Source of the DNA: Bacillota bacterium
GTDB taxonomy: Bacteria > Bacillota > Clostridia > Lachnospirales > Bianqueaceae
DNA length: 64,000 nt
Reading direction: 5' to 3'
NCBI GenBank assembly: GCA_017441925.1
Contig: JAFRUE010000007.1
Location: forward strand, 62,001 to 126,000
Shown here: positions 41,097 through 59,487 of the stretch, one piece after another
Layout: each line of letters opens with the position of its first letter
How positions within the stretch are numbered: the stretch's first letter is position 1
Translations under genes and position numbers: made by a program
The notes under the pieces: generated by a model
Database searches by the model: none
Seen by the model: only the letters and a program-made list of their open reading frames with translations
Told to the model about the DNA's origin: nothing

Positions 41097-42482
41097 TTAT
41101 CTTATATCAGCCATCCGGCCGGGGTCGTATACCGGTTTGCCGGCAGCCGTGGCGGAATACAGGATCCACAGAATGAGCCACATCAGACCGGCTGAAGCAC
41201 CGAGTCCGGTGCTGAGCTCCATCAGCAGCGCACCGAGTAGGGAAGTGGCGCCAGTAGCCACAAGCAGCAGATTTGCCGTATCGGCATAACCGTAGGCTAC
41301 GAGTGCTCCAAGACCGATCACACAGCCCAGAATCGTCAGGAACAGGATTCTCAGGAAACCGTATAGCCAGCCGAGATGCGAGCTGTAACGGACCGAGAGA
41401 AGATCATGCGCAGAAGTCTTGACAGCGGCGGATTTCATCGCGGCGGAGAGTTCTGTCGCATCCGAAACATCGATATAGACACCGCCGGTCGATTCCGCGA
41501 TACTGCGCATCAGATTTTCATCGGCATCTCCCAGACCGACGGTGCTGACGCTGATCCGTGCTTTTGCATACTGTTTCAGGACAGGATTGATCGGGCGGAA
41601 GAGACCGATATCTCCGGCCACACCGTCCGTCAACAGGATGACACGCGGCGAATCTCCGCCTTTCCACACGCCGGACTGATAGTCTTCCAGAACCTGTTTC
41701 AGCGCGCCGCGGATCGCAGTCCCTCCGTCACTTGCGCCGGAAAGCTGCGGCAGGCCTTTGCCGACCGTTGTCATTGGCTGCAGCACGGTCGTATCGTTTG
41801 AGAAACCATACACCATATAGGGAAAATCAGAATCCATATCTCTGAGAACCTCACGGATCGCCGTGTATCGCTCTCCGTCGGGGTCATTTGCCGTCATGGA
41901 TCCGGAATCGTCGATGACAAAAACATATGAAGTCGGTCCGGCCTGTTTCGCTGACGCGCTCAGGCCGTACAGCCACTGGAAGAACGCCGCGAGGAAGAAA
42001 ACGATGACGGCTCCGGCCAGAAGGATCAATGCCGTAAGGCCTTTGTCGGGACTGCCGGTCAGCATGTTCTCTCGGAAGACCGCAGTGATATTGCTGAAGA
42101 TGAAAACCGTCAACACAACGATCACATAGAGGATCAGGAAGATCAGACCGATCAGCCAGGGACGGGAAGCGGTATCTACCATGCCGGAGTAGACAAGTGT
42201 TCCGATAAGCCAGGCAACAATGCCCGCTGCAAGTGTTATCAGGAGAAAGAGCCAGTTCATTTTGACGGAAACGCCGGCCGGGCTCCTGCCTCCGGATCGG
42301 CTGCTGTTGCTGCCGCGGCTGTATCCGCTGCGGTCAGAACTGCTGTTACGGCCATAACTGCCGCCGCGGTCATTCCCGTAATCCCGGCCGCGGCTTCTGG
42401 AGGAGCTCCGGGATCTGTTTCTGGAATCTGTAGAAGATCTCCAGTCGGATGAAGACCTGTTCCGTGAATCTCTGCCTGCCAT
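41097..42482 (-). CDS. VWA-domain membrane protein with an N-terminal Ser/Arg-rich tail
   Basis: A protein of 461 residues. Residues 1 to about 70 are a disordered Arg/Ser/Gly-rich tail. Three or so membrane segments follow (about 78-180), then a VWA domain with a complete metal site: VIDDSGSMTAND near residue 197, Thr in GGTAIRG near 265 and Asp in LLTDGVAGD near 300. Three more membrane segments end the protein. This topology puts the VWA domain on one face of the membrane between two hydrophobic blocks. I chose ATG 42482, after GAGGGT. It is divergent from the second VWA gene. Confidence 0.8.
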   Translation of the reverse strand: MAGRDSRNRSSSDWRSSTDSRNRSRSSSRSRGRDYGNDRGGSYGRNSSSDRSGYSRGSNSSRSGGRSPAGVSVKMNWLFLLITLAAGIVAWLIGTLVYSGMVDTASRPWLIGLIFLILYVIVVLTVFIFSNITAVFRENMLTGSPDKGLTALILLAGAVIVFFLAAFFQWLYGLSASAKQAGPTSYVFVIDDSGSMTANDPDGERYTAIREVLRDMDSDFPYMVYGFSNDTTVLQPMTTVGKGLPQLSGASDGGTAIRGALKQVLEDYQSGVWKGGDSPRVILLTDGVAGDIGLFRPINPVLKQYAKARISVSTVGLGDADENLMRSIAESTGGVYIDVSDATELSAAMKSAAVKTSAHDLLSVRYSSHLGWLYGFLRILFLTILGCVIGLGALVAYGYADTANLLLVATGATSLLGALLMELSTGLGASAGLMWLILWILYSATAAGKPVYDPGRMADIR

Positions 42483-42527
42483 ATCTGTACCCTCACTGTT
42501 TTGTTCGAATCTGTTTACTTGCTCGGT

Positions 42528-42556
42528 ATTATAGCAGATTCGGTTGCCAGTTGCAA
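42528..42556 (-). promoter_or_regulatory. Promoter of the VWA membrane protein operon
   Basis: TTGCAA, a 17-base spacer and TATAAT on the minus strand. Confidence 0.75.
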
Positions 42557-42668
42557 GCAAGGTTTACAATATGTGCATACTGCCGCCGGACTGTGTCAGA
42601 CAGCCGGTTTGAACAGTAATTCTGTAGAAAAAACTATAAAAATAATTATTGTCATCCACAGAAAAATA

Positions 42669-42697
42669 TTGCGTAAAAACATCTTTTTATGTATAAT
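42669..42697 (+). promoter_or_regulatory. Promoter of the VWA/tubulin-like operon
   Basis: TTGCGT, a 17-base spacer and TATAAT in an AT-rich stretch, about 80 bases before the start at 42775. Together with the promoter at 42528-42556 it makes a 170-base divergent control region; the stretch between them holds no gene. Confidence 0.7.
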
Positions 42698-42774
42698 ATA
42701 CTAGAGATATATTAGACAGAGTGAATGTTATAGGTGCAAAAACTGTCCCTGCTTTCACAGACAAGGAGGAAAAG

Positions 42775-45030
42775 ATGAAATTTCATAGATCTCCTATACG
42801 GACTTTGCTTGTTTTTGTGTTGATCCTGGGTTTACTGGTCCCGGCTTTCGCGGCTGGAGCAGCAGGAACAGCACAGAATATCAAAACAAAGCAATGGTCC
42901 AATTTTAATGTCGGTCTGGTCATCGACGGCAGTGCCTCTCTCGGCAATGCGGGATCCAGCTCGACAGACCCGGACGGAATGCGTTATGAGGCGCTGGATC
43001 TGTTCCTCGCGCTTCTGACGGAGCGGGGCAATTATGTTGATACGATCGTTTTTAATGATAATAAAGCCGGCTATCTTCTGAATACCGGAGTGCAGCCGAT
43101 CGACAGCCGTGAGGCCAAGCTTGAGCTTTCCCGGCAGATCCGGGCTACGGGATCGGTCGGAGATACCGATATCGGCGGATCGCTGCTGGAAGCTGTGGAC
43201 GCGCTTCAGAAGGCCAGTGATCAGAACGGACTTAAGCCTGTCGTGATCCTGTTCAGTGACGGACGCACTGATCTGGGCGACGATAAAGAAGCTTATGAGC
43301 AGTCTCTGGAGAATAAGGAGAAGGCGATCGAGCTCGCTCAGGAAGCCGGTATCCCAGTCTACACGATCTGTCTGGCGGCTTCTGATTTTGCCGATCCGGC
43401 GGAACTGCAGGAGATCGCGGAGCGGACTTCCGGTGAGTATATCGTAGTTGACGAGGCGGAGGAGCTGAGCGATGCTTTCGAGAGCTTTTACCAGCTGATC
43501 TTCGCTTCTTCCTGCAAGAACCGGATCTCGGCCGCTTTTGACGCGGAAGGCAAGTTCGATTATGATTTTAAGATCCCGCACTATGGAGCCGAGGAAGTCA
43601 ACGTCATTATGGACACGGACGAGATCAAGGACGTCCACATGACACTCCCGGCTGCTGAATGGGATAAGGCGGCTCTGGAAAACACGTCCATGAGCGGCGG
43701 CAAATACAATGTCATTAAGTTCGTGGATCCGGAATCAGGCGACTGGGTACTGCACCTGGCAGGAGAACCGGGCAGCGAAGTCCTGGTAAACGTTTTGTAC
43801 ACGCTGAACGCTAATGCGTTTCTGGGGACAGAAGACGGTCTGACGGATAAAAACGGCAGCGCCGATTACGAGCTTGGTGCGGATACGACGCTGGTGACAT
43901 GGATCTATGAGGACGGGAAACAGATCACCGATCCGCTGGTAGCGGACGAATATCTGGCTTCTGTCACGCTTGTGAATCAGGCCGACGGCAGCAAGCGTAC
44001 CGAACCGATGACGCCTAACGCCAACGGATCCTTCAGCTACACGGTAAAGGGCGATCCGGCGAAAAAGATCACGTACAGAGCGACGGCTCATCTGGAGACA
44101 GCCGGCATTTCGATGGATACCAATACTGTCACCCTGAATATGGGCAGCAAGCCTCCGGCAATCGTTGAGCCTCCGGAGAAGGAGGAGCGGACGCTGACGC
44201 TTGAGGACGGCGAGCCGGTCGTCAAGGATACGGTCACGGTAACGATCTTCCGCAATCATTCAAAGACATACGATCTGTCCAAATGGTTCAACTATGACGG
44301 AGAAGATGAGCTTAAATACGAGATCGTTTCTTCGCAGCTTGTACCGGATACGGCGAAACTGGACGGACATGATCTGAAGATCAACACATTGAAGAGTAAG
44401 AGCGGCAATGTCCTTCTGAAAGCCTCCAACGAGAACGGAGCTTTTGTCGAAGTCACACTCCGGCTTAAGGTCATCAACCTGATTCCGGCAATCGGCGGCC
44501 TGACATTCGCGCTGATCGCGGCCGGCATCGTGATCCTGCTGGCCGGTTTCTACGCACGGACACATCTGATTTTCCGTGGTAATGTAGAGGTGCGGAATCT
44601 GGAGACCGGAAGCCACGGTACTTCGCCGGCGAGCTTCCGCGGCAAGCTGATTCTGAGACGTTTCATGGTGGGTGATACCGGTTTCGACCAGAAGAAAGCA
44701 TACTTCTATCCGACCGGACGCAACCGTCTGGAGTTCCGTTACGGCACGGGCTTCTACATGAGGGAGTATCGGGATATGCTTAAGAAAAAAGATATCAGCT
44801 CCGGCACCTATGTGATCTTCAGCGATCAGGCAATGACAAGGGGCATTGAGGTTCGCGTCAATCCGGACCGTAATGCGGCTGTAAGAGAGCCTCGCGGAGG
44901 CAGAGGTGACGTCCGGGGCGGCAGCCGCGGCGGACGCACAGCGGGAAGTTCCGCAGGACGTGCCGGAAACGCCAGCGGACGGGCCGCTCAGGACCGCAGC
45001 AGAGACCGCTATGCGGGACGCGGCCGATAA
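42775..45030 (+). CDS. Secreted, membrane-anchored VWA protein with an Arg/Gly cytoplasmic tail
   Basis: A protein of 751 residues. A signal peptide (about residues 1-27) is followed by a VWA domain (about 40-250) with metal-site residues D51-x-S53-x-S55, a Thr in GDTDIGGSL and the Asp in LFSDGRTDLGDD. Beta-rich Ig-like regions follow (about 260-560). A transmembrane helix at about 569-595 leads to a cytoplasmic part that ends in an Arg/Gly-rich tail (about 700-751). It should be a type I membrane protein that binds something outside and connects to the cytoplasm. It is the first gene of the tubulin-like operon. I chose ATG 42775, after AAGGAGG. Confidence 0.82.
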   Translation: MKFHRSPIRTLLVFVLILGLLVPAFAAGAAGTAQNIKTKQWSNFNVGLVIDGSASLGNAGSSSTDPDGMRYEALDLFLALLTERGNYVDTIVFNDNKAGYLLNTGVQPIDSREAKLELSRQIRATGSVGDTDIGGSLLEAVDALQKASDQNGLKPVVILFSDGRTDLGDDKEAYEQSLENKEKAIELAQEAGIPVYTICLAASDFADPAELQEIAERTSGEYIVVDEAEELSDAFESFYQLIFASSCKNRISAAFDAEGKFDYDFKIPHYGAEEVNVIMDTDEIKDVHMTLPAAEWDKAALENTSMSGGKYNVIKFVDPESGDWVLHLAGEPGSEVLVNVLYTLNANAFLGTEDGLTDKNGSADYELGADTTLVTWIYEDGKQITDPLVADEYLASVTLVNQADGSKRTEPMTPNANGSFSYTVKGDPAKKITYRATAHLETAGISMDTNTVTLNMGSKPPAIVEPPEKEERTLTLEDGEPVVKDTVTVTIFRNHSKTYDLSKWFNYDGEDELKYEIVSSQLVPDTAKLDGHDLKINTLKSKSGNVLLKASNENGAFVEVTLRLKVINLIPAIGGLTFALIAAGIVILLAGFYARTHLIFRGNVEVRNLETGSHGTSPASFRGKLILRRFMVGDTGFDQKKAYFYPTGRNRLEFRYGTGFYMREYRDMLKKKDISSGTYVIFSDQAMTRGIEVRVNPDRNAAVREPRGGRGDVRGGSRGGRTAGSSAGRAGNASGRAAQDRSRDRYAGRGR

Positions 45031-45082
45031 AAAGTGTAATTTATTACGGAATACATATATCAGGAAGGGAGACATATGATCC

Positions 45083-48000
45083 ATGTATAATTCATTACTT
45101 CTGAATGCCGGCGGCGGTATCATCACGTCGAGCATGAAGTCACAGCAGAGCAAAGACGCGGGTTCCGTCATCATCGGACTGGGCGGCACCGGGTTCCGTG
45201 CTCTGTCGGTTCTGAAGCAGAAAGTGTATAATCAGCTGTATGCCGACGGCGAGTATGAGGCAATGCAGAATCCGGATCCGGCAATGCGCAAGATCGATGT
45301 CAAGCGCTATCAGAACATCCAGTTCCTGGAGATCGATTCTGATGATACCGAGATCAAAACCTCATCCGGCGCGACCAGACTGGACGCGAATGAAGAGTTC
45401 TTTTCCATTAAGGAAAAGGAGATTTCCGTCCTTCTGAAAGAGAAGACACAGATCAAGCAGAATCCGCTGATGGACTGGATGGATATCGACCAGATCAGCG
45501 AAATGATGTCTCCGGAAGGAGCCGGCGGCGTGCGCCAGATCGGACGTTATCTGCTGCTTTCCAAGATCGATAAGCTGGAGACGGCTCTGATCAAGAAGAT
45601 CAACGACGCGAGCACCGGCATTCCGGGCGGCGCAGTAAACGTTTACATCATTGCCGGTATCTCCGGCGGTACCGGAAGCGGATGTTTCCTGGATACCTGT
45701 TATATTACCCGTGCGATCCTGAATCAGACCGGTCATAAGGACAGTAAGATCTATGGCCTGTTCTTCCTGCCGGACGTTGTGACCAGTAAGCCGGCCGTCG
45801 CTTCCAAGCGTGGAGCCAAAGAGTATAACGAGTCCAACGGTTACGCTGCCATGAAGGAACTGGATTACCTGATGAATCTTCAGGATTCCAATGAATGGTT
45901 CGAGCAGCGCTATTCCGCCAGCATGTCCGTTAAGACGCAGGATCCTCCGTGCGACATGTGTCATCTGATCTCCGCTACCAACGCCAAGGGCGATGTCCTG
46001 CCGAACGGCTTTGACTACTGTGTCAATGTTGCCGCGGACTACGTTATGGCTTATCTGGCATATGTTGCCAACGCGCAGGGACAGAACGATAACAATAAAG
46101 CGGAAGTTCCGCTGACCATGTCCGGTCATCTGGCCAATGTCAATACCGGTATTACGCACCTGAAGAAGACTGCCGGAGCGAACCTCAAGTATCATATCGT
46201 CGGCGCGGCGAACGAAGAGATTCCGATGACGGAGATCGCAACGTATCTTGCAGCCGGTTTTATCGACAAGTTCGCGAACCTGGTCAATCCGGACGTCAAG
46301 CCGCTTTCCAAGGAAGAGGTCAAGCAGTTCATCAGAGAACTCGGACTTGAAGCCGATACGCTGCAGCAGAGCTTCCAGAATGGAGATTATCCAGAAGCCC
46401 GCATGCCGGAAATGGATATGGATGATCTGAAGCGTTACGGCGTACCGGACCGCGGCAAGCTGCCCCGTCCGTGGGCGGAGGCTTCCACAACGATCGCTGA
46501 TAGAGTGGAAGGCGCTCTGGGAGCCCATAAGGCAGCCCTGAACGCAGAGCTTCCAACCTATGACCGCGCACGTCTGCAGGAGGACGGTACGACATCGCTG
46601 CTCGGCAAGATCTTCCTCAAGCTGCTGCAGCTGGCGGATAATCCGCAGTACGGACCGTTCTACGCAGCCTCTATCCTGAATCACGGCGGCTATGATCTGC
46701 TTTCCGAACTGAGAGGCCAGATCGAATACGCGGATCAGTCCGTACAGACCGCCCGCAGCCGCCAGAGTGAGTTCCTTGACTATATCGTCGATGATGCTTC
46801 CGGTTTCTGCGGAGCCTGGGGACTTGGACGCAAGGGCAAATATACCAAGTATAAACAGACGGTCGAGGATTATCTCGCCTTCAACATCCGTGAGAAAGAA
46901 TATCAGACGATCTCCGACATTCTGAACAAACTCGTCACGGATCTTCAGAGAGTCCTGACGCAGGGTTACTTCAAGCCTCTGACCGACCTTCTGACAGAGC
47001 TTGAGCAGACCTTTAAGGAGAATACGAACTATACGGTCCAGAAGAGCAAAGAAGCCAAGAAGGACAAGGATTATACGATCCGTCTCCTGGAGCTGAAGGA
47101 TATCCAGGAAGATCTGGACAAGGCCATCAAGAATCTGCAGCCGAACGAGCTGGTCACCAAGTTCATCGATTACCTGATCGCAAAGCCGGGTGAGTGGCGT
47201 ACCACCACGGATGATCAGGTCATCGGACGCTTCATCAGTACGTATATGCAGGATCAGTTCAGTACGATCGTCAATCAGCAGATGCAGCAGTTCCTGGTCA
47301 AGAAGTATCCGAAGGCTACGAACGTGACAGAGCTGACCAAGACCGTTCAGGACGATATCATCAAGAAGCTCGCGGAGAGCGCCGAGCCGATGTTCTGGCG
47401 CGATCCTGTCTATAAGGGCGACACCTTTGACAGCGTAAGCATGTCGGTACCGAGCGGATCAACCGTTATCTGCAACGCGGCTGAAAGTTATGCCAAGATC
47501 TCGTCCGAATTCACCGTCCGTCAGACGGGCCTGCAGGACAGGATCTTTGCACTGCGTTTCTGCAGCGGTATTCCGTTCTATGCATATCAGGGCGTTACGC
47601 TGATGAAGCAGGTCTACGATTCAACAGCAGGAACGGCTTCCGGTGCCGGCGCGCATCTGTATTCCAAGACCGGCCGCGGTGATTTCGGCAAACATGACTG
47701 GCGTACCGAGATCCCGACCCCGATGCCGATGTCCGCACAGGCTGCTCTTGTTCCTAACGGAGAAGCGCTGAAAGAACTGTATATCCAGGGCCGCGATGCC
47801 GGCATTATCCGCGAAGAGCTGGATGTTACCGGACAGCCGGACGGCAATTACAGGATCTATTTCCTGGAGCCGGAACAGGAGCGTAATTATACGATAGACG
47901 ATTTCAAGGGACCCAACGGCGAGTTCCTTGTTAACAAATGGGATGCGGAGCGCAAAGCTGTTCAGGACAGACTGAATGTCCGCAAGGCGAACGCAGATCC

Positions 48001-49123
48001 GAATCATTCGATCTCGCTGAAGAATGACGGAGACGACCGCGGCGGCAACTTCAAGGAAATGATCCGTATCGACTATTTCGTCCATTACCGCCGTTATCAG
48101 GAAGCGGTCCGTCAGGAACTTGCATCCCGCAAGATCCTTGAGGATGCCGTTAAGAAGCTGGATGCTCTGAGGACGGAAGTAGAAGGATACGACCGCGAAG
48201 TACAGTCTTTCGCAGAAGAAATGTTCTTCGGGTACATCAAGGGACTGAATGCGGAAGGCAATCCCGACTACGCGTACGGCCGTATGCGTTCGGTCGAGTA
48301 TGATTACGAAGACGCCTATCATGTAGCGCAGAAAGAGATTTTCGCGGCACGCAATGACGAAGGCGCTTTCCGCGATCATCCGCTGTACCGCGCGTTCCTG
48401 CACTATACGGCAATGGATCCGGACGGTGAGCCCAGACGCTCGCTGGATCTGATGCGCCGCGACCGCAAGGCCGAAACGAGAAAAGCGGGCGTGGATAACG
48501 TCATCGCTTATCAGATGGAGCAGAAGTGGACACCGGATATGGTGGCCGATCTGGAGAGAAAAGTACGGAACGGCTTCGGTGCGGAAGACGCTCAGAACAT
48601 AATGCGTTTCTATCGGACCTTCGTCGCGAATATCCATGAGTTCAAGAGCCAGTTCACTCCGGAAGGCTGGATCAAAGGGTGTGTAGAAGCGGAAACGCCT
48701 CCTGTCGGGCAGGCTGCCGGTGGACAGCAGGTTACCTGGACTGCGCCGAAAGCGGGCGGAGACACCTGGACCTGCCCGGTCTGCGGAAAAGAGCAGACGG
48801 GAATGTTCTGCCCGAACGACGGAACCAAGAAACCGGAACCTCAGCCTGCGGCAGACGATGATTCCTGGATCTGCCCGACCTGTGGACAGAAGCGTACAGG
48901 ACTGTTCTGTTCCGCTGACGGGACCAGGCGGCCGGAAAAGGCACCGGACAACAGCTGGATCTGCCCGGTCTGCGGTGAAAAGCGTAACGGCATGTTCTGT
49001 CCCAAGGATGGAACCAAGAGACCGGCAGCGGCTCCGGAAGCTCCGGCATTCTGGTTCTGCCCGAACTGCGGCACCAAGAATACCGATATGTTCTGCCAGA
49101 ACTGCGGAACAAAGAAAGCATAA
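45083..49123 (+). CDS. Tubulin-like GTPase with four C-terminal zinc ribbons
   Basis: A protein of 1346 residues. The N-terminal part has the hallmarks of the tubulin-like family (Pfam Tubulin_2): IIGLGGTGFRAL (residues 30-41) and the tubulin/FtsZ signature loop in IAGISGGTGSGCFLD (G195-G200). A long helical middle region follows. The end (about 1229-1346) carries four zinc ribbons; the first three have CxxC...CxxD and only the last has four Cys. Such a protein should bind GTP and might polymerise. The assigned start is ATG 45083 with a rather distant GAAGGGA; ATG 45134 is an alternative. It is followed by a hairpin, then by six or seven further genes of the same apparent system. Confidence 0.85.
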   Translation: MYNSLLLNAGGGIITSSMKSQQSKDAGSVIIGLGGTGFRALSVLKQKVYNQLYADGEYEAMQNPDPAMRKIDVKRYQNIQFLEIDSDDTEIKTSSGATRLDANEEFFSIKEKEISVLLKEKTQIKQNPLMDWMDIDQISEMMSPEGAGGVRQIGRYLLLSKIDKLETALIKKINDASTGIPGGAVNVYIIAGISGGTGSGCFLDTCYITRAILNQTGHKDSKIYGLFFLPDVVTSKPAVASKRGAKEYNESNGYAAMKELDYLMNLQDSNEWFEQRYSASMSVKTQDPPCDMCHLISATNAKGDVLPNGFDYCVNVAADYVMAYLAYVANAQGQNDNNKAEVPLTMSGHLANVNTGITHLKKTAGANLKYHIVGAANEEIPMTEIATYLAAGFIDKFANLVNPDVKPLSKEEVKQFIRELGLEADTLQQSFQNGDYPEARMPEMDMDDLKRYGVPDRGKLPRPWAEASTTIADRVEGALGAHKAALNAELPTYDRARLQEDGTTSLLGKIFLKLLQLADNPQYGPFYAASILNHGGYDLLSELRGQIEYADQSVQTARSRQSEFLDYIVDDASGFCGAWGLGRKGKYTKYKQTVEDYLAFNIREKEYQTISDILNKLVTDLQRVLTQGYFKPLTDLLTELEQTFKENTNYTVQKSKEAKKDKDYTIRLLELKDIQEDLDKAIKNLQPNELVTKFIDYLIAKPGEWRTTTDDQVIGRFISTYMQDQFSTIVNQQMQQFLVKKYPKATNVTELTKTVQDDIIKKLAESAEPMFWRDPVYKGDTFDSVSMSVPSGSTVICNAAESYAKISSEFTVRQTGLQDRIFALRFCSGIPFYAYQGVTLMKQVYDSTAGTASGAGAHLYSKTGRGDFGKHDWRTEIPTPMPMSAQAALVPNGEALKELYIQGRDAGIIREELDVTGQPDGNYRIYFLEPEQERNYTIDDFKGPNGEFLVNKWDAERKAVQDRLNVRKANADPNHSISLKNDGDDRGGNFKEMIRIDYFVHYRRYQEAVRQELASRKILEDAVKKLDALRTEVEGYDREVQSFAEEMFFGYIKGLNAEGNPDYAYGRMRSVEYDYEDAYHVAQKEIFAARNDEGAFRDHPLYRAFLHYTAMDPDGEPRRSLDLMRRDRKAETRKAGVDNVIAYQMEQKWTPDMVADLERKVRNGFGAEDAQNIMRFYRTFVANIHEFKSQFTPEGWIKGCVEAETPPVGQAAGGQQVTWTAPKAGGDTWTCPVCGKEQTGMFCPNDGTKKPEPQPAADDDSWICPTCGQKRTGLFCSADGTRRPEKAPDNSWICPVCGEKRNGMFCPKDGTKRPAAAPEAPAFWFCPNCGTKNTDMFCQNCGTKKA

Positions 49124-49145
49124 AAGATCATACGTTATGAATCAG

Positions 49146-49192
49146 AGGTCCAAGCCCGGTAACCTGGCCGGCACCGGGTTTGGACCTTTTTA
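49146..49192 (+). terminator. Terminator-like hairpin inside the system operon
   Basis: AGGTCCAAGCCCGGT and ACCGGGTTTGGACCT pair with one or two mismatches and are followed by TTTTAT. It would reduce transcription past the tubulin-like gene. I see no convincing promoter before the next gene, so the downstream genes may be made at lower level by read-through. Confidence 0.7.
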
Positions 49193-49249
49193 TCCAGTCA
49201 TTGCAGATGGATTCTTTTTCTATGTTTGTACAGCAAGGAGAGGGACAAA

Positions 49250-51157
49250 ATGCCAGATAAATCCAGAGGCGAGGTATACAGACAGCTGATCGAGGACTGC
49301 AGCAGGAAGCTAAGAGGCAATGCTGTGGACGGCAACGGACGTCTGATCAGTATGCCATTGCTCAGCGTGTTCTTCGGGCAGGAAGCGGAACGGAATATAC
49401 CGGTCGTTTTTGACACCTATGGTGCTTACTGGGTCGATGCCCGGTATCTGAGGGCTCTTGGACAGTGGGATTATAATCCGGAAGAACCGGAGCGCCAGTG
49501 CAACATCATGCGCAGTGCCCGGGGTGTTTTCCAGGAATACAACCATGTACTGATCGCGTATTACTGGGATATCATGGACGAGACATTCGAGACGGCGTTC
49601 AGGATGGCGCAGGACGAGCTTTCTTTCCCCATGATGACCCGGTATGAATGCCTTTATTTTATCTTCTGCAAAGATTCTACGGCGGAATACCGCCGCGTCC
49701 GGAAGGACCGTCTGAACCGTCTGATGGACTGGGCAGCGGCTGCGAATCGTCACCTTCTGATCCTGAGCGATTCGACGGATCAGGGCATGCTGGACGCGGA
49801 GACATATCCGGAGAATTACCGGATCTGCGCAAATATACTTACGATCATCAACAGCGTTTATTATAATGACGCCCTCCGCCGGGAGACACCTCTCGGCCCC
49901 GAATTACTGATGAATCTGCAGAGAGAGCCGTATTACAGCGCCTCTTTCTATTCAATAGAGAAAAACATACATGATATCGCCTGTGTAACGCTGGATACCA
50001 TGCTGACCGAGTACAAGAACATCGCCAAACGTTCCAGATCCATGCAGAACGTGCGGGAGAGACTGTGCGGCGTCGGCAAGGATTATCCGGATCTTTTTGA
50101 TGAGTTCTTCCAGGAAAACCTGCTTCGTTTCCTGCACGCGGATGTCTCGTTCCTGCGGACGATGCCCTGGACACCGGCCATGGAGGATCTTGAACAGAGC
50201 ATTATCAATCCCCGCAGAGGCTGGGGCCGTACGCTGAATCCGGCTGACTGCGCCGAGCGGGCGGTAGCGTCCCTATCGGGCACACCGGACGGAGGACCGG
50301 GTATCTGGGAGCTGGTCTACGACCGCTACTACGGCAGCGCTTTACGTGAATGGCAGCAGGAAGAAGGCAGAACGATCCAGAGTTTCTTTGAACAGAAGCT
50401 GAACAGTCGTCTGAGCTATATTGAGCAGCGCGACATGCTGGGACCGGAGATCGATGTGCTGGAGCGCCGCGGAGAAGAGCTGATCCGGAATTACCGGATG
50501 GGAGATCCGATGGATCCCGGCAGTATGAAGCTTGAGGACTGGCTTGACAACTGTGCTGTCGAGCAGATGAAAAGGGAGCTGTATCCTACGCTTTTGGAAG
50601 GTCTGATCGAAGCGATGAAGAATATGGCGCTTAAATCCAAGGACTTTGAAGATGTTCTTATCGAGGCTGACCGCAACGTGCCCGGCGAGAGAGCGGATGA
50701 TTCGATCCGGACCGCCTACAGCCATTACGCGAAGGAGCTCTTTGGTCAGTATCCGGAGGTCCTGACAGACAATATCCGTCCCTGCGATCCCGACGAGCTG
50801 CCGGCAGAGCTTGACAAGGCTTTCACCCAGCTGATCCAGGCGGATACGGCCGGCAACAGGATCTATACGGCTTCTTTGGAAAAGGACCTGGCCTTCCAGA
50901 TCGAGCAGGGCGGGGCACAGGCATCACGCGATACGATCTATGCCTGCTTCCGGCAGAATCTGGCTGAGATGAGGCGGTTGAGGACACTTCATACTCCGTC
51001 CGACACGATGCTTTACAGTATGGTCAATGAGAACGCGGCTTTTCTGAACGATCTGCGTCAGGATCAGTTCGGAATGGTCTTCCGGTCCGCCCGGGCGGAT
51101 GTCATCGAACGTCTGATGATCTATCCGGTCGAACGCGGAGACATTGTACTGGATTAA
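49250..51157 (+). CDS. Unknown protein of the tubulin-like system
   Basis: A cytoplasmic protein of 635 residues with no signal peptide or membrane segment. I recognise no named family. The first 220 residues alternate predicted strands and helices (IPVVFDTYGAYWVD, YECLYFIFCKDS, NRHLLILSDSTDQG, NYRICANILTIINSV), like a Rossmann-type fold; the rest is mostly helical. It lies between the tubulin-like and GTPase genes, 12 bases before the next gene. An adaptor or regulator of the tubulin-like protein is a guess from position only. Strong AAGGAGAGG site sets the start at 49250. Confidence 0.7.
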   Translation: MPDKSRGEVYRQLIEDCSRKLRGNAVDGNGRLISMPLLSVFFGQEAERNIPVVFDTYGAYWVDARYLRALGQWDYNPEEPERQCNIMRSARGVFQEYNHVLIAYYWDIMDETFETAFRMAQDELSFPMMTRYECLYFIFCKDSTAEYRRVRKDRLNRLMDWAAAANRHLLILSDSTDQGMLDAETYPENYRICANILTIINSVYYNDALRRETPLGPELLMNLQREPYYSASFYSIEKNIHDIACVTLDTMLTEYKNIAKRSRSMQNVRERLCGVGKDYPDLFDEFFQENLLRFLHADVSFLRTMPWTPAMEDLEQSIINPRRGWGRTLNPADCAERAVASLSGTPDGGPGIWELVYDRYYGSALREWQQEEGRTIQSFFEQKLNSRLSYIEQRDMLGPEIDVLERRGEELIRNYRMGDPMDPGSMKLEDWLDNCAVEQMKRELYPTLLEGLIEAMKNMALKSKDFEDVLIEADRNVPGERADDSIRTAYSHYAKELFGQYPEVLTDNIRPCDPDELPAELDKAFTQLIQADTAGNRIYTASLEKDLAFQIEQGGAQASRDTIYACFRQNLAEMRRLRTLHTPSDTMLYSMVNENAAFLNDLRQDQFGMVFRSARADVIERLMIYPVERGDIVLD

Positions 51158-51169
51158 GGCGGTGACATC

Positions 51170-51841
51170 ATGGCATTCAGAGAAATCAACATGGACGCGC
51201 TGAATATCCGGGATTTCCGGGTCGGGCGCTTTCAGAACGGGAAATACTATATCAGCCTTGCCAATACGCTGGCGGACGGATACGTCATCTGTTTTTCCAA
51301 AACGATGAATCCGATCATGCTGGATGACCTTGCGGGAGTACCGCAGGATTTTCTGAACCGGCTGCTGCAGAACGGATACGACGAGTATCAGCTTCCTTCC
51401 GGAGAATGGATCGCGCTGCGGGCGGTTCCGCGCCGGGCTTTCGACGCTATGCCGACCTTCTCGGATTTTACGACGCATCCTCCGGAAAGGATTCAGGTCT
51501 GGACGATGCTGGTGCGTCCGCATATGGACATTTACGTGCCCAGACAGCCGGGCGCGGAGACACAGTTCCTCCCGGCTTTTTATTCCGTCAGCTGGAGAGA
51601 CGGCGGACGGGACACGAACGGAGGATCAAGACCGGGAGAACTGGTCGTTTCCATTGCAAGAGAGGTCCAGTACGTACAGGGGTCGCTGGAATACAGAGTA
51701 GGAGAACGTGAACCAATCCCGCTTCCTTACAGCGCACTGGGACAGAAACTGTATATTCAGAATAACGGCGAACCGGTCATTGTACAGCCGGCTGCGGGCT
51801 ATGAGAACCGGTACCGCGACGAAGCGGCCCGCAATCATTAA
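51170..51841 (+). CDS. Small unknown protein of the tubulin-like system
   Basis: A protein of 223 residues, beta-rich by pattern, with no signal peptide or membrane segment and no family I recognise. It starts 12 bases after the preceding gene (AAGGCGG upstream) and ends 17 bases before the GTPase gene. Close packing implies a stoichiometric partner of its neighbours. Confidence 0.7.
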   Translation: MAFREINMDALNIRDFRVGRFQNGKYYISLANTLADGYVICFSKTMNPIMLDDLAGVPQDFLNRLLQNGYDEYQLPSGEWIALRAVPRRAFDAMPTFSDFTTHPPERIQVWTMLVRPHMDIYVPRQPGAETQFLPAFYSVSWRDGGRDTNGGSRPGELVVSIAREVQYVQGSLEYRVGEREPIPLPYSALGQKLYIQNNGEPVIVQPAAGYENRYRDEAARNH

Positions 51842-51858
51842 GGGAGGGACAGGACTCT

Positions 51859-54540
51859 ATGGGAAATTATCATATCACGTGTCCATATTGTTTCAGTAAA
51901 TTTGACGACGATCAGGTCATTTTCCGCGCGAACACCTCTTACACGGAGGAGCAGACCCAGGACCCGAGACTGTCACAGGACGAGAGAGAAGTACGTAAGC
52001 TGTTCCGCCAGTATGACCCGACGACCAAAAGGGCACAGGATATTGTCCCTTCGGATCATGCGGACCGTGAACTGATGGCTTACTGGGAGACACGAGGCGG
52101 CGATACCGGCTTCACAACAGCGGATCCGCATTGGATGAATCCGCATATCGAGCCGAATTCCACGACATTCCGCGATATGATCTCCCAGCGCGGACAAGGA
52201 GAAGTCCGTCCGGACGAGGACGGTTTTGTCCGTGATAAAGACGGCTTTATCTATCGTGTCGTAGACCGGATGGAGACGGATCTGGCGCTTCCGATGGCAC
52301 GTCTGTGCCCCAAATGCCACAATCCGCTGCCGCTTGCGACTTACGGTAAATACGACGTGCTTTTCATCGGCGTTGTCGGTATTACTTCCTGCGGTAAAAC
52401 TGTTTTTCTGAACCAGCTGCTTAAGAGATTCCCGGCTGCCATGAGGGGCACGGGCTATCATATGGGAGATTCGAACCTTGCGACACTGAACGAATCGGTT
52501 GCCCGCAACCATCCGCTGCCGGGCGCGACGGATGATAAACTGATGCGCCGCCCGCTGGCGATCCAGATGCTTGTGGACCGGGACAATAAGGACCCGAACG
52601 CAACGCCCAGGACACTTGTTTTCTATGATATCGCAGGTGAGAACTGTGTCGAATCCGTCGATGACAAGGGTAATATTCAGGAGCGCAACTCCGTATCGAC
52701 ATATCTTGGACAGTGTAACGGACTGCTTTTCCTGATCGACCCCAAGCAGATCCCGTATTTCTCCGGCAATATGAACATCGAGAACGCAAAGGAAGTCGCG
52801 GACGTTATCAATAAAGTCATCCCGCTTCGCGGTACGAAGACCTGGGATGACGTACCGGTAGCGATCGTACTGACGAAGAGCGACCGCATCCCGCCTAACG
52901 TCATCCGCGAGTTCCCGGAGATGGCCCAGCCCGCACGGACGGAGGGCGAGAACGGTAAACAAGGTTTTGCAAGGGATCATTATGTCCCGCTCAATCATTT
53001 CCTGAAAGAGAAATTCGAAGAGAACGAGAGCGATATTGAGGCGGCGCTGGATTCTTTCCAGAAGCATGCCTATTTTGCCGTGTCCGCGATCACGTGCGGT
53101 GTCCAGAACCGTTTTGAAAAGCATGGCAATATCTATTTCCTGGACACGATGAACAACGATAAATTGGACGATCTGAAGCATTTTGTGAACCGCTGGAACG
53201 GCGCGGACAGCCTTGCCGGGATCAGGCCGCAGGACCGTCTGTACCACGGGGAAAGATCCCGCATGGATCCGAACCGCGTGCTGGCTCCTGTCAGAGCCGC
53301 TGACGGCAGCGAGATCAGTTTTGACATCAACGCGCAGATCCTGCCGATGCAGGCACTTGCCGCGATGGCACAGCAGGGAGGACGTCAGGGACGCAGTCAG
53401 CGTGCCAGTGCAGTCGTCTCGCAGGCGTCGGGAGATGCCGCAGAAGCTCCTGCGACAAGGCAGAGCCGAGGATCCCGCGGGCGCGCCAGTGCAGTCGTCG
53501 GCAGCGCAGTTGTAAATACCGCATCTGCCGCGGAAGAAAATGCAGGGACAGCAGCACAGAATGAAAACGTCCAGGCTGTTCAGAACCCGGTCGATATAGA
53601 GACGGAGATCCAGGCTTTTGCGATGGGTAATTATATGCACGCGATCAATCTGACGGTGGATGATGTGCTGACGCTGACGCTGCAGAGCTATCCGGACGGT
53701 AACCCGAATCCGAGACGGATCGAAGAACCGATCAAGTGGCTGCTGTGGCAGCTGCATTTCCTGGAGCCAAAGCAGTTTGCATGGACGCCCGAGCCTGCAC
53801 GTCCCCGGATCATGATTACTCCGGCGCAAAAGAGAAGGTATGAGGACTCGCTTGCGGAATGGAAAGAACAGAACGAACAGGCAGAGAAAGAATTCTGGGC
53901 CTGCGATATATCTTCTGTTGATCCGAATATAATCGATATTACCGGTGGCCGTGTTGATGAGGGCCACGAGTATTATGAAGACCATTACAATGACCGTCCG
54001 ATGTATCGTGATGGTCAGGGTGGCTACGGCGGTCAGGGCGGCTACGGTGGCCAGGGTGGCTACGGCGGTGGCCAAGGCGGCTATGGCGGCCAGGGCGGTT
54101 ACGGTGGTCAGGGCGGCTACGGTGGCAATCAGGGCGGCTATGGTGGAGGCCAAGGCGGCTATGGTGGCAACCAGGGCGGCTATGGCGGCGGTCAGGGCGG
54201 CTATGGCGGCAACCAGGGCGGCTACGGCGGTGGTCAGGGCGGCTACGGCGGTGGTCAGGGCGGCTACGGTGGCGGCCAGGGCGGCTATGGTGGCAACCAG
54301 GGCGGCTACGGCGGTGGTCAGGGCGGCTACGGTGGCAACCAGGGTGGCTACGGTGGAGGCCAGGGCGGCTACGGTGGCAACCAAGGCGGCTATGGCGGCG
54401 GCCAGGGCGGCTACGGCGGCCAAGGTGGTTATGGTGGCAGCCAGGGCGGCTACGGATATAATCATTCTGATAACCCGGATCAGAATCCTGACAATCCAAA
54501 CAATAACCGGGGCGGCTACAATGGAGGCTATGGACGATGA
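51859..54540 (+). CDS. Zinc-ribbon TRAFAC-type GTPase with Gly/Tyr/Gln-rich tail
   Basis: A protein of 893 residues. A split zinc ribbon (C8, C11, C150, C153) precedes a P-loop GTPase domain: Walker A/G1 GVVGITSCGKT (171-181), G3 YDIAG (D257, G260), G4 TKSD (339-342) and a likely G5 at VSAIT. This matches the double-GTPase type TRAFAC proteins (Pfam DO-GTPase2) that occur beside GAP1 proteins. A linker with two imperfect repeats around SQRASAVVSQ and RGRASAVVGS follows. The final 180 residues are a low-complexity Gly/Tyr/Gln tail. It should act as a GTP-dependent switch in the cytoplasm. Its TGA overlaps the ATG of the GAP1-like gene. Confidence 0.8.
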   Translation: MGNYHITCPYCFSKFDDDQVIFRANTSYTEEQTQDPRLSQDEREVRKLFRQYDPTTKRAQDIVPSDHADRELMAYWETRGGDTGFTTADPHWMNPHIEPNSTTFRDMISQRGQGEVRPDEDGFVRDKDGFIYRVVDRMETDLALPMARLCPKCHNPLPLATYGKYDVLFIGVVGITSCGKTVFLNQLLKRFPAAMRGTGYHMGDSNLATLNESVARNHPLPGATDDKLMRRPLAIQMLVDRDNKDPNATPRTLVFYDIAGENCVESVDDKGNIQERNSVSTYLGQCNGLLFLIDPKQIPYFSGNMNIENAKEVADVINKVIPLRGTKTWDDVPVAIVLTKSDRIPPNVIREFPEMAQPARTEGENGKQGFARDHYVPLNHFLKEKFEENESDIEAALDSFQKHAYFAVSAITCGVQNRFEKHGNIYFLDTMNNDKLDDLKHFVNRWNGADSLAGIRPQDRLYHGERSRMDPNRVLAPVRAADGSEISFDINAQILPMQALAAMAQQGGRQGRSQRASAVVSQASGDAAEAPATRQSRGSRGRASAVVGSAVVNTASAAEENAGTAAQNENVQAVQNPVDIETEIQAFAMGNYMHAINLTVDDVLTLTLQSYPDGNPNPRRIEEPIKWLLWQLHFLEPKQFAWTPEPARPRIMITPAQKRRYEDSLAEWKEQNEQAEKEFWACDISSVDPNIIDITGGRVDEGHEYYEDHYNDRPMYRDGQGGYGGQGGYGGQGGYGGGQGGYGGQGGYGGQGGYGGNQGGYGGGQGGYGGNQGGYGGGQGGYGGNQGGYGGGQGGYGGGQGGYGGGQGGYGGNQGGYGGGQGGYGGNQGGYGGGQGGYGGNQGGYGGGQGGYGGQGGYGGSQGGYGYNHSDNPDQNPDNPNNNRGGYNGGYGR
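54013..54456 (+). repeat. About 22 coding repeats of QGGYGG type
   Basis: Tandem 18-24 base units encode QGGYGG, GQGGYGG or NQGGYGG; in the middle part GQ and NQ versions alternate. Codons vary within the array (GGC, GGT, TAC, TAT), so the protein pattern seems selected rather than a very recent DNA expansion. The long open reading frames on the opposite strand here are by-products of the repeat. Confidence 0.92.
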
Positions 54541-57212
54541 AATTTGAACAGGCCTGCCGTTTCCGCGCATCGGGAGGATACCGGATCACAGCGCATACGA
54601 ACAACATTACCGAGGATAATACCCGGCATATGGCTGTTTTTTCCGATACGATGAATACACTTTTTGAACGCGGCGGAGACTCGGTCATGACATTGGCGAT
54701 TCAGGAATATGATGCCATGCTGACCGTGAGTACAATGCGTTCGGACGTCGGCGGACGTCCTGCCATTTTCAGCAATACTTTCTTTATTCCTCTTGAAGAT
54801 TACAACTGGCTGATGGAAAAGAATCCGTCGATCATTCTGACCATACCGGATGATGTTTTCCAGGTCATGGAAATTGCCGGACTGGAGCATCTGAATCCGG
54901 TCGAAATCAATGAGAATATGGATCCGCTTCTCCTTCTGGAGGACGTCCGGAACGATTATCAGCTGGACAAAGATCGCTACGCTACGCTCTTAGCCGGCGC
55001 GGTACGTGCTCTGACAGGCGGCGGATCACTCTGCATCTGTGCGAACGCGGACCCGTATCTCTCCATGGATATCGTGCGGGATATGGTTTTCTGCGTTGCG
55101 AAAGGCATTATTCCCAGCCTGCGCGGACAGCTGACCTGGTCGAGCGCGCTCGATACCCGGCAGAAAGTCTGCCTGAATAACGGCGGAGCACGGATCGGCA
55201 GCGCCAGTATGCTGAGTTTCCCGGCATATGCTGACGGAACGGCTGATATCGGAAATGTCGATCCGATGACCCGGCGTGTTTTTGACGCGATCGCGGGAGC
55301 TTCGGATGAAGAGCGGGACCGGATGCTGGACGCTATGCAGAACTGGCTGGATAATCTGCTGGGACCGGAAGCGCGCCCGGACTTTTATCTGTATGTTATG
55401 TCCTGGTATATCGCCACCGGGTATCCGCTGACAAGTCAGGAGGCACAGTCCCTTCTGCAGATCCTGACGAACTCGGCCGGTATTGCCGAGATCAAGGAAG
55501 AAGCCAGAGAAGAAGTCACGATGGATTTGCTTCAGTATTGCGGAGACGGGTCGGAGGATCCGGCCTTAACGGAGCTCCTCGGCAAACTGTACGAGACAAG
55601 TGTCGCGGCAAGCAAAACCGCTATGATAACGGCAGTGAAAGCGGCAGTTCTCCGGCTCCCGGCTAAAGAGCAGTTCCAGGTCACAAGATACCTGATGGAT
55701 AAAGCGGCTGACCCGCTGATCACATCCGAAGCAGCTGACCGGCTGGCAGAATATGCCGCATCGGGAAGCACGCTTCCGATGGATCAGGGTGCAGAGATTC
55801 TGGCCTGGTGCGAGAAAAAGAAGCTCACGTCCGTTCAGATCAAGAAACTCTGCGGCGATTATCTTACACAGCTTCCTGTCCCTGAGAAGATAAATCTTGC
55901 CGATAGGATTACAAGAGATCTTCTGTCCGTCAATCCGCAGAACAGGGAACTGGACTGCTTCCTGCTGAACAATCTTGTGACAGGTATGCTGGATCCCGTA
56001 TTCTCTGCGTCAGGCGCGGTTTTAGCCGATGATACGGTCAGTAATCTGGTCAGACTCTGGGTACGTCTGGATAAATGGAATCCGGAGGAGGGGCAGCTGC
56101 AGGACACGATTACAGATTATATCTATGCCAAGAAGCTCCACACGATGTCCAACCTGTGGGAACAGACCGATTATCTGCAGTGGATGGAGAAAAATGTCCC
56201 GGTTCTTTTCAATCAGATAGAGGACCGGATACACCGCAATCCTGCTGACAAAGAGATGTGGGATACTTTTACCGTGTCGCGTTATCTCAGAAAAGGCATG
56301 ACCCTGAATGAACTGGTGGATGCTTCTGTCTATAATCCTGTACGGGACGCACGCAGCGGATTCGAGAGGAACTTCGTCTATTACTGGAATGAACAGATGA
56401 AGGAAGACGTTCATAAAATCGAAGGTTTTACCTGGCGGTATGACTGGGTGCGCAGTATTCAGGATAAAGCCAGGATACTGAATGAACACTGTTCGCAAGA
56501 AAGCTGTGCCAGCATTATGGAAGAGACGGTCCGGCTCTTCTGGCAGACACTGCGTTATTCGGAAGTGATCCGGGATGTCGATGATTGGATCAAGAACGGA
56601 CAGCGGCGCGATATTCTGAACCAGATGTCATATAAAGACCGGTTTGCAAAACAGGCGATTCTTGAGACCATCGAAAAGAAGCTCGGGATCCGCCAGCTGT
56701 GGGAATCCCTTAAGGCCGGACTGAGCCGTGATACCGAAGCAATAAACTGCAGATATTTCATCCAGGTGATGGAAGCGGAGAATTCCTCCTTCAATATTCC
56801 GGAGAAGCAGGATATTGCTTCTGTAATGAATTATATGGCCGCAGAGATCTATCTGATCACGGGAGGCCTGATGGCCTGGGATCTGCTCGTAATGGGTAAT
56901 ACCGTTTATAACGAGGACGGTACAAAACAGTTCCAGACATCTAAGTTCGCGGAAGCCGTCAATACAATAAAAGCCAGTACCGATCAGGCTGAGCCGCGGA
57001 TCGCGGCGGAGTCATCGCAGATCCTGAACAGTGAGAACGCCAAAGATCTGCTGAAAGAACTGCGCAACGCGGCCAGGGTATCCGAACCGGTAGCGCTTCT
57101 TCTGGAAGAGCTTAAAAAGAATCATTCCGCAGGCAGCTCGCGCGGTCTTTTCGGGCTGAGCAAAGAATCCATGCAGGACGGTGTCGCGGGGCTTTTTGGT
57201 AAGCACAAGTAA
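54537..57212 (+). CDS. GAP1-like GTPase-associated protein
   Basis: A protein of 891 residues without signal peptide or membrane segment. The N-terminus (MKFEQACRFRASGGYRITAH, then RPAIFSNTFFIPLEDY) resembles the GAP1 N-terminal domain, and residues about 135-225 (ALTGGGSLCICANADPYLSM, then IIPSLRGQLTWSSALDTRQ) resemble the GAP1 middle domain. The remainder is a helical repeat region. GAP1 proteins accompany double-GTPase TRAFAC proteins and are thought to be their partners. The four-base overlap with the GTPase gene supports a direct pairing. The match is recalled by pattern, so a profile search should confirm it. Confidence 0.65.
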   Translation: MKFEQACRFRASGGYRITAHTNNITEDNTRHMAVFSDTMNTLFERGGDSVMTLAIQEYDAMLTVSTMRSDVGGRPAIFSNTFFIPLEDYNWLMEKNPSIILTIPDDVFQVMEIAGLEHLNPVEINENMDPLLLLEDVRNDYQLDKDRYATLLAGAVRALTGGGSLCICANADPYLSMDIVRDMVFCVAKGIIPSLRGQLTWSSALDTRQKVCLNNGGARIGSASMLSFPAYADGTADIGNVDPMTRRVFDAIAGASDEERDRMLDAMQNWLDNLLGPEARPDFYLYVMSWYIATGYPLTSQEAQSLLQILTNSAGIAEIKEEAREEVTMDLLQYCGDGSEDPALTELLGKLYETSVAASKTAMITAVKAAVLRLPAKEQFQVTRYLMDKAADPLITSEAADRLAEYAASGSTLPMDQGAEILAWCEKKKLTSVQIKKLCGDYLTQLPVPEKINLADRITRDLLSVNPQNRELDCFLLNNLVTGMLDPVFSASGAVLADDTVSNLVRLWVRLDKWNPEEGQLQDTITDYIYAKKLHTMSNLWEQTDYLQWMEKNVPVLFNQIEDRIHRNPADKEMWDTFTVSRYLRKGMTLNELVDASVYNPVRDARSGFERNFVYYWNEQMKEDVHKIEGFTWRYDWVRSIQDKARILNEHCSQESCASIMEETVRLFWQTLRYSEVIRDVDDWIKNGQRRDILNQMSYKDRFAKQAILETIEKKLGIRQLWESLKAGLSRDTEAINCRYFIQVMEAENSSFNIPEKQDIASVMNYMAAEIYLITGGLMAWDLLVMGNTVYNEDGTKQFQTSKFAEAVNTIKASTDQAEPRIAAESSQILNSENAKDLLKELRNAARVSEPVALLLEELKKNHSAGSSRGLFGLSKESMQDGVAGLFGKHK

Positions 57213-57284
57213 CAGGACTGTCTGATACGGAGACAGGATGTCCGGCTTAGGCAGATGACAGTCAGACAGGGAGGAGATGGGCAA

Positions 57285-58415
57285 TTGGGAGAGAGTTATA
57301 ATGAGAACTGGTGGCAGAACGGTGAGTGGTTATCCAGCTGCCTGACTGGGACCAATTACTATGAAGTCGTGGATAGTGAACCGCGCTATCTCGAAGAGAT
57401 CAGGGACGGAAACCTGGAGGAAAGAGTCCATGTTGACAGCGACCATCAGTTTATCAAGGTGCGAGCCTTGGGCTCCAGAGAATCGCAGTGGATGATGCTG
57501 GATCATGACGGTAAGAATATCGACCGCATGGAGGATGTCCTGGGACGGATCATCCTGGCAAAACTGCGCGGAGCGGACGGATTTTTCCTGCCGTATGATA
57601 TGATCTGGGACCGGAGCAGCGATGACGGGCTTGCAGGCTATGTCATGCATCCGATCGATATGTCGCGCTTCGTACCGATCCGGAACTATCTGCATACGAC
57701 ACAGGCGCCCCGCTGGTTCCTTTCATACAGTCTGTTTGAACGGATCGGTCTGATGCAGAGCAAAGGCATCACCATGGGAGGATTCGGCAGAGAGCAGGTC
57801 TTTGTGGACCAACGGGATATGCGGATCTGGATCTTCACCGGCGACAGTCTTAGGATCGGCCGGAAGACGGGAGGAGCTCTCCCGAGCTGGGAATATGAGG
57901 ACCGATATCAAGACGGCTTTCTGGCGGCACCGAGAGCCGCGATCGACGGGTTCAGAGAGCGCAGTATCCAGGTGCCCGCGATCGTCTATGATATCTTCTC
58001 AGCGGCTTCGCTGTCCTTCTATCTGCTGTTTTACACCCATCCTTTTGTCGGTAATTACTACTGGTACAGCGGCAGCCTGAATCCGGCTGTATATCACGAT
58101 TATTACCAGACACATCCGATGTACATCTTTGATGAAGAGCATATCGAGACGAATCCGAATGTCCTGCAGAACGATCCGGATCAGGAGTTCAACGCCATCG
58201 TTCTGGAGCAATGGGACAGGACGGCGCCCGAGCTCAAGACTCTGTTCAACAGCCTGTTCATGGATATCTGTTATCCGCATGAATTCACCGGACAGGAGAG
58301 TTATCTGCAGGTAGAGAACTGGCTTCAGGCGATCAATGCCGACGGCCGAATCAATGATAATGAAAGCAGCAGGCAGGACATTGACTTTGCAATGTACCAG
58401 TCACTGTTAGTCTGA
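57285..58415 (+). CDS. Degenerate protein-kinase-like protein
   Basis: A protein of 376 residues. The order of motifs resembles bacterial kinases of VWA-linked conflict systems, but key residues are lost. LMQSKGITMGGFGREQVFVD (F167) sits where such kinases have a GD(I/L)xxxN catalytic loop, FTGDSLRI replaces the metal-binding motif, and IVYDIFSAASLSFYLLFYTH leading to HPFVG (H252-F254) mirrors the FALAVLIFxLLxxGRHPFAG helix. I infer a pseudokinase that binds rather than phosphorylates. I prefer TTG 57285, eight bases after GGGAGGAG; ATG 57255 is in frame but would start before that site. Confidence 0.55.
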   Translation: MGESYNENWWQNGEWLSSCLTGTNYYEVVDSEPRYLEEIRDGNLEERVHVDSDHQFIKVRALGSRESQWMMLDHDGKNIDRMEDVLGRIILAKLRGADGFFLPYDMIWDRSSDDGLAGYVMHPIDMSRFVPIRNYLHTTQAPRWFLSYSLFERIGLMQSKGITMGGFGREQVFVDQRDMRIWIFTGDSLRIGRKTGGALPSWEYEDRYQDGFLAAPRAAIDGFRERSIQVPAIVYDIFSAASLSFYLLFYTHPFVGNYYWYSGSLNPAVYHDYYQTHPMYIFDEEHIETNPNVLQNDPDQEFNAIVLEQWDRTAPELKTLFNSLFMDICYPHEFTGQESYLQVENWLQAINADGRINDNESSRQDIDFAMYQSLLV

Positions 58416-59475: not shown

Positions 59476-59487
59476 GAGGTGGCTCAG

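Follow-up and report, generated by a model that had tools for sequence, protein, structure and literature searches.

Arg-rich tails on two membrane VWA proteins and a Tyr-rich GTPase tail in a bacterial tubulin-theme gene cluster: possible partners at the inner membrane face

Our analysis concerns a stretch of 64,000 nucleotides from a gut-type Bacillota bacterium of the family Bianqueaceae (assembly GCA_017441925.1, contig JAFRUE010000007.1, positions 62,001 to 126,000), hereafter the window, and a gene cluster within it that encodes three proteins with low-complexity tails. Two membrane proteins with VWA domains, VwaN and VwaC, carry Arg-rich tails, and a GTPase of the DO-GTPase2 family carries a Tyr-rich one. 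The best explanation, which we hold tentatively and at slightly less than an even chance, is that the Arg-rich tails are cytoplasmic brushes on VWA sensors and that the matching Tyr-rich tail of the GTPase docks there and coheres with itself. The VWA domains would lie outside the cell and the short tails inside, with the Tubulin_2 protein, the GTPase and its partner GAP1 in the cytoplasm. The Arg-rich tails would serve as multivalent docking brushes on the inner membrane face, and the Tyr-rich sticker tail gained by the GTPase of this genus would bind them through Arg-Tyr contacts while also self-cohering. Docking would thus concentrate the GTPase, GAP1 and the tubulin at the VWA sensors.

Translations and composition counts showed that all three tails are present, as an earlier note on this DNA had described them: a Ser/Arg-rich start on the first VWA protein, an Arg/Gly-rich end beyond the membrane helix of the second, and about 22 QGGYGG units on the GTPase. 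Its inventory missed an Arg/Gly patch in the GTPase (aa ~508-545; aa, amino acids) as well as 3 Tyr and 1 Trp in the VwaN tail. The latter tail opens with MAGRDSRNRSSSDW and comprises 72 aa, with 24 Ser, 16 Arg, 11 Gly and a net charge of +10. The true start of vwaN is the ATG at 42482 (M27 of the longest open reading frame (ORF), which opens with TTG), and GAGGG lies upstream. According to hydropathy, VwaN homologues have three transmembrane (TM) helices before the VWA domain and two or three after it, and the multi-TM protein of Firmicutes systems has an extracellular VWA domain (Kaur 2020, PMC7159879). Because the N-terminal tail is strongly positive and three TM helices precede the extracellular VWA domain, the N-terminus of VwaN is predicted to be inside.

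The true start of vwaC is at 42775, with AAGGAGG upstream; residue numbers given here are counted from the GTG at 42721. An AlphaFold2 (AF2) model with a mean predicted local distance difference test score (pLDDT) of 80 contains a signal helix (25-44), the VWA domain, beta domains, a TM helix (588-614) and a further beta domain (617-715), followed by the tail. Foldseek matched this model to the SpaC/PitA pilus adhesins and to VWA domains. The model suggests that beta domain 617-715 and the Arg tail, both beyond the TM helix, are cytoplasmic. The last 59 aa include 15 Arg and 13 Gly and have a net charge of +10, and Arg is favoured over Lys in both VWA tails (16 Arg in VwaN and 15 in VwaC, with almost no Lys). 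Of the 22 units in the GTPase array, 21 are perfect QGGYGG and one is QGGYGY; together they contain 23 Tyr, and the last 198 aa of the protein have 29 Tyr and no Phe. This C-terminal tail was modelled by AF2 without secondary structure, at pLDDT 24-35, and the VwaC tail at 34-43; the tails are predicted to be disordered (pLDDT 24-43), a point that the earlier note had proposed to check. It had also supposed that the Arg tails face the cytoplasm, and hydropathy, charge and AF2 predict this for both VWA proteins, so that both Arg tails are predicted to be inside the cell. With regard to the GTPase linker, its Arg/Gly patch could leave the GTPase with both stickers in cis.

QGGYG matches in the DNA fell inside the GTPase tail in 22 of 24 cases across the 2.7-Mb genome. 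Of 295 genomes of the order, 2, both from this genus, have arrays of at least 2 QGGYGG units; of 398 genomes of the phylum, 1 does, namely this one. Arg/Gly/Ser- or Tyr/Gly-rich 40-mers occurred only in the three tail proteins and two doubtful small ORFs of a ~421-kb sample (322 ORFs, ~15% of the genome), which is the background for the Arg tails. These pattern searches of genome, order, phylum and sample led us to reject chance composition. In another species of this genus (G002), whose GTPase core is identical at 465 of 470 positions, all three tails are kept, and the array has 23 units with 24 Tyr. A third genome of the genus, which is 79% complete, gave no GTPase match. Within the arrays of the two species, the ratio of nonsynonymous (pN) to synonymous (pS) differences was 0.027 and 0.089, with pS of 0.52 and 0.58. 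Since array pS exceeds that of the GTPase core between species (0.28), the units are no fresh expansion. By its low pN/pS, the array is under purifying selection on its amino acids. Despite diverged sequences, each species has 15 Arg and a net charge of +10 in its VwaC tail, and the net charges of the VwaN tails are +10 and +9. Selection on tail composition fits a sticker function.

Docking is plausible given the preference for Arg over Lys, the presence of 29 Tyr but no Phe, and the trans mixing known for FUS fragments. At 1 uM, the low-complexity region of FUS, which has 27 Tyr, undergoes demixing in trans with an Arg-rich fragment (Qamar et al. 2018, PMC5927716). A crude pair calculation was performed with CALVADOS-2-like parameters, rigid random chains and a 70-aa piece of the Tyr tail. 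It gave attraction between the Tyr tail and the tails of VwaC (-121/-131 nm^3) and VwaN (-435/-376), self-attraction of the Tyr tail (-263/-172), and values near zero or positive between Arg tails. Changing Tyr to Ala, Arg to Lys or Arg to Ala weakened the attraction in each case. By analogy, the pairing of tails is reminiscent of the sticky tails through which droplets form in animal cells. A bolder version would be a 'split FUS', in which the Arg tails of the VWA sensors and the Tyr tail of the GTPase would combine into a heterotypic condensate anchored at the membrane, collecting the tubulin-like polymer and GAP1 at the sensor and responding in a switch-like manner to an extracellular VWA signal; we consider this unlikely.

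The distribution of tails in homologous systems tempers the docking explanation. A class-wide GTPase search found few members (7 of 391), so wider sampling relied on a genome scan with the tubulin; it yielded 511 relatives, Clostridia and Paenibacillus contributing many, and the best 80 of these were retained. In the other 77 GTPase-bearing loci (some are duplicates), none of the GTPases has a Tyr/Gly tail. The closest relatives (45-47% identity; L061/L190 and L191) lack one as well, which places the gain of the Tyr tail in this lineage. Arg tails on VwaC recur in [Eubacterium] cellulosolvens (L085), Oscillibacter (L098) and loci L096 and L069, and VwaN in these four genomes also has an Arg or basic tail, at the N- or C-terminus. 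Counting this genus, Arg tails occur on both VWA proteins together in six systems.

Several of these observations count against docking. Among the genomes sampled, the Tyr tail is confined to two species of one genus, and the four systems just named have Arg tails without any Tyr-tailed GTPase. Paenibacillus VwaN has a C-terminal tail of 30-38 aa with 3-9 Arg, in the company of neither a VwaC tail nor a Tyr partner. A Tyr partner is therefore not required in general, and tails are dispensable for the core function, since Cellulosilyticum, Monoglobus and others lack them on every member. In addition, the pair model is illustrative only, as the Arg-Tyr attraction is built into its force field and it uses CALVADOS-2-like parameters and rigid chains. 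No Tyr-rich or acidic low-complexity tail stood out on other proteins of the Arg-tailed systems without a Tyr-tailed GTPase. Judged from these sequence comparisons, the tails are accessory, and Arg tails arise at different ends, independently of the Tyr tail. The Tyr tail was added in a setting where VWA proteins often have Arg tails, which leaves Arg-Tyr recruitment as a plausible elaboration of this genus only.

The idea in the earlier note that the Arg tails hold the Tyr-tailed GTPase at the membrane therefore stands in part. Predicted topology, disorder, Tyr and Arg numbers of the order of those in FUS and the pair model speak for it, whereas the four other systems with Arg or basic tails on both VWA proteins and a GTPase without a Tyr tail speak against it. 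Of the two findings that the note had named as refuting its idea, Arg tails outside the cell are not what topology predicts, but many homologous systems do lack tails on every member.

Two observations on relatives may be added. In Pseudoflavonifractor An569 (L061:6712-8970; L183:1315-2682), the GTPase has a short Tyr-rich N-terminus, MFMPNYNYSGQYGNPSSYYDD, and VwaN an Arg/Gly/Pro-rich C-terminal tail, a possible weak parallel at opposite ends. A 244-aa TM-VWA homologue of [Eubacterium] cellulosolvens (L085:14403-15137 (+); L185:1084-1818) has lost the VWA domain between its TM helices, yet an Arg/Gly tail remains at either end; it looks as though the tails and the membrane part were important even when the sensor domain is gone.

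The strongest competitor to docking holds that the Arg tails are generic cationic anchors, binding anionic lipids or acidic faces of partners, while the Tyr tail mediates independent homotypic self-assembly of the GTPase. We regard this as possible, though rather doubtful. It is in keeping with the recurrence of Arg or basic VWA tails at either terminus without Tyr-tailed GTPases, with the mostly negative net charge of the soluble cluster proteins (-25 to -34 for the tubulin, p643, the GTPase, GAP1 and p386), and with a modelled Tyr-tail self-attraction of similar size to the cross-attraction. However, the preference for Arg over Lys is something that lipid or purely electrostatic binding need not demand. 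It is improbable that the tails are instead membrane-tethered RNA-binding elements, with the SR/RGG tails and the GGY tail binding RNA or ribosomes as in eukaryotic ribonucleoproteins; their composition is SR/RGG-like, but domain-library searches found no RNA-binding family in any cluster member, and Rfam no RNA in the cluster. Near-neutral repeat slippage leading to dispensable disordered tails is just as improbable, for although the DNA of the array repeats in tandem with 18/21-bp units and most homologues lack tails, pN far below pS and the kept unit number (22 versus 23) reject recent neutral slippage as the main cause; in VwaN and VwaC, the tails lack repeats at the DNA level and keep their Arg number and charge despite diverged sequence.

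The locus is one divergent gene cluster of two transcription units (Table 1). The earlier note had assigned the trio to one operon; in fact, memA and vwaN lie on the minus strand and the genes from vwaC through the lectin gene on the plus strand, with a region of ~290 bp between them. An extended -10 promoter (TTGCAA-17-TATAAT) is located upstream of vwaN at 42556-42528 and supports the ATG start of that gene.

Table 1. Features of the cluster and its tails (positions in the window)
Feature	Position	Strand	Basis
memA: polytopic membrane protein, 266 aa	40260..41060	-	translation; homologue only in G002; without Pfam match
vwaN: TM-VWA protein (3 TM, extracellular VWA, 2-3 TM)	41097..42482	-	PF00092 E 3.4e-13; TM hydropathy
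Arg/Ser-rich N-terminal tail coding sequence of vwaN	42267..42482	-	composition; predicted cytoplasmic
divergent intergenic/promoter region vwaN-vwaC	42483..42774	none	
vwaC: signal helix, then VWA and Ig-like beta domains, a TM helix, cytoplasmic beta domain (predicted), Arg tail	42775..45030	+	PF00092 E 1e-8
Arg/Gly-rich C-terminal tail coding sequence of vwaC, 54 aa	44866..45027	+	composition and AF2; predicted cytoplasmic, disordered
Tubulin_2 (FtsZl1) protein, four C-terminal zinc-ribbon repeats	45083..49123	+	Pfam search, PF13809 E 3.6e-58
p643: putative second, diverged tubulin-theme protein	49226..51157	+	hidden Markov model (HMM) homologues and position after Tubulin_2
p223: small conserved-position protein	51170..51841	+	homologues in L061-type relatives (L062)
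DO-GTPase2 with CxxC pairs C8/C11 and C150/C153, 893 aa	51859..54540	+	PF19993; P-loop
low-complexity GTPase linker, Arg/Gly patch QQGGRQGRSQR...RQSRGSRGR	53359..53613	+	pLDDT 24-45; kept in G002
22-unit QGGYGG array within 203-aa disordered C-tail (aa 691-893) of GTPase	54016..54459	+	pattern search, AF2
p891: GAP1 (GAP1-N2 and GAP1-M region, aa 2-206)	54537..57212	+	profile-profile alignment
p386: conserved partner, fold not assigned	57255..58415	+	HMM matches in 19 loci of such systems
Sel1-repeat membrane protein	58429..59475	+	PF08238 E 1.6e-6, slightly under cut-off; 15 loci
C-type lectin/MORN membrane protein, closes cluster	59479..62622	+	PF00059 E 7e-11; seen only in this genus

By homology of its members, the cluster is a Firmicutes DO-GTPase/GAP1-N2/tubulin-theme system, a kind already predicted, and the trio of tails on this known kind makes it a new variant. 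The DO-GTPase component matched PF19993 at 32.7 bits (cut-off 27; E 7.6e-8), and its putative N-terminal zinc ribbons (C8, C11, C150 and C153) are invariant in 23 homologues. A sequence search of the GTPase core against solved structures gave no match, and Foldseek returned only generic P-loop GTPases (MglA, YcjX). Directly downstream, p891 had no direct PF20013 or PF20014 match in a Pfam search; hhalign with relatives that match these families gave 96.4% (E 1.3e-9) over the GAP1-N/M region, and on profile homology p891 is GAP1. Homologues of p643 occur in 79 loci, sited after the tubulin, and the Paenibacillus homologue weakly matches PF13809 (E 3.7e-4). The position and homology of p643 are in line with the two-tubulin layout of Firmicutes systems. 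Two VWA genes are present, one of them multi-TM with a VWA domain predicted to be extracellular by hydropathy and AF2. PADLOC models gave no match in the cluster, and NCBIfam only weak ones below cut-off.

Clusters of FtsZl1 (Tubulin_2), VWA and GTPase genes are predicted membrane-remodelling operons (Makarova and Koonin 2010, PMC2875224), and a conflict or immunity function has been predicted for the tubulin theme of GAP1-N2 GTPase-centric systems (Kaur 2020, PMC7159879). For the present cluster, membrane remodelling or conflict is a predicted function, and the literature searched gave no experimental function for DO-GTPase/tubulin/VWA systems. As for individual proteins, the four zinc-ribbon repeats occupy the C-terminal ~140 aa of the Tubulin_2 protein, and other proteins in this genome and in related ones have repeats of the same kind (e.g. 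G000:C9:177450-177740); the lectin/MORN protein is a candidate variable sensor or effector. Elsewhere in the window, a 365-aa putative lipoprotein (1218-2315, minus strand) has many SSKEES/SSKTES repeats derived from a 30-bp tandem repeat at 1798-2109.

The new findings are strongest on three points: the array is under selection on its amino acids, it is confined to a single genus among the samples searched, and Arg tails recur on VWA proteins of distant systems. DO-GTPase/tubulin/VWA systems are widespread in Firmicutes, and the tails offer a direct handle on them, predicting which parts touch at the membrane. They further provide a natural test case for whether bacteria independently reached the Arg-Tyr grammar of animal cells, using membrane proteins and no RNA-binding domains. 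Further, the recurrent Arg tails suggest a shared, unstudied coupling step.

Four known systems bear comparison with this one. FUS condensates (PMC5927716) share disordered Tyr-rich and Arg/Gly-rich segments and a similar Tyr number (29 here versus 27). In contrast to FUS, the Tyr and Arg parts here belong to different proteins, the Arg part is attached to the membrane, and no RNA-binding domain accompanies them; trans mixing is established for FUS and would be a prediction here. Proteins of Borgs, including a Tubulin_2 (PMC9879509), share tandem repeats that create disordered regions absent in homologues, and a related protein class; however, their repeats differ in composition, belong to an archaeal element and lie in the tubulin, rather than in the GTPase as here. 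The tubulin theme of GAP1-N2 systems (PMC7159879) has DO-GTPase2, GAP1, tubulin proteins and two VWA proteins in common with our cluster, one of the latter multi-TM with an extracellular VWA domain. Unlike in those systems, three of the proteins in our cluster bear low-complexity tails, the tubulin ends in zinc ribbons, a lectin/MORN protein is encoded, and no recognised effector was found; the term 'low-complexity' is absent from the text of that paper. Lastly, the clusters of Makarova and Koonin (PMC2875224) share Tubulin_2, VWA and a diverged GTPase. The portion of that paper used here does not describe tails, and those reported above may link the GTPase with the VWA proteins in the membrane.

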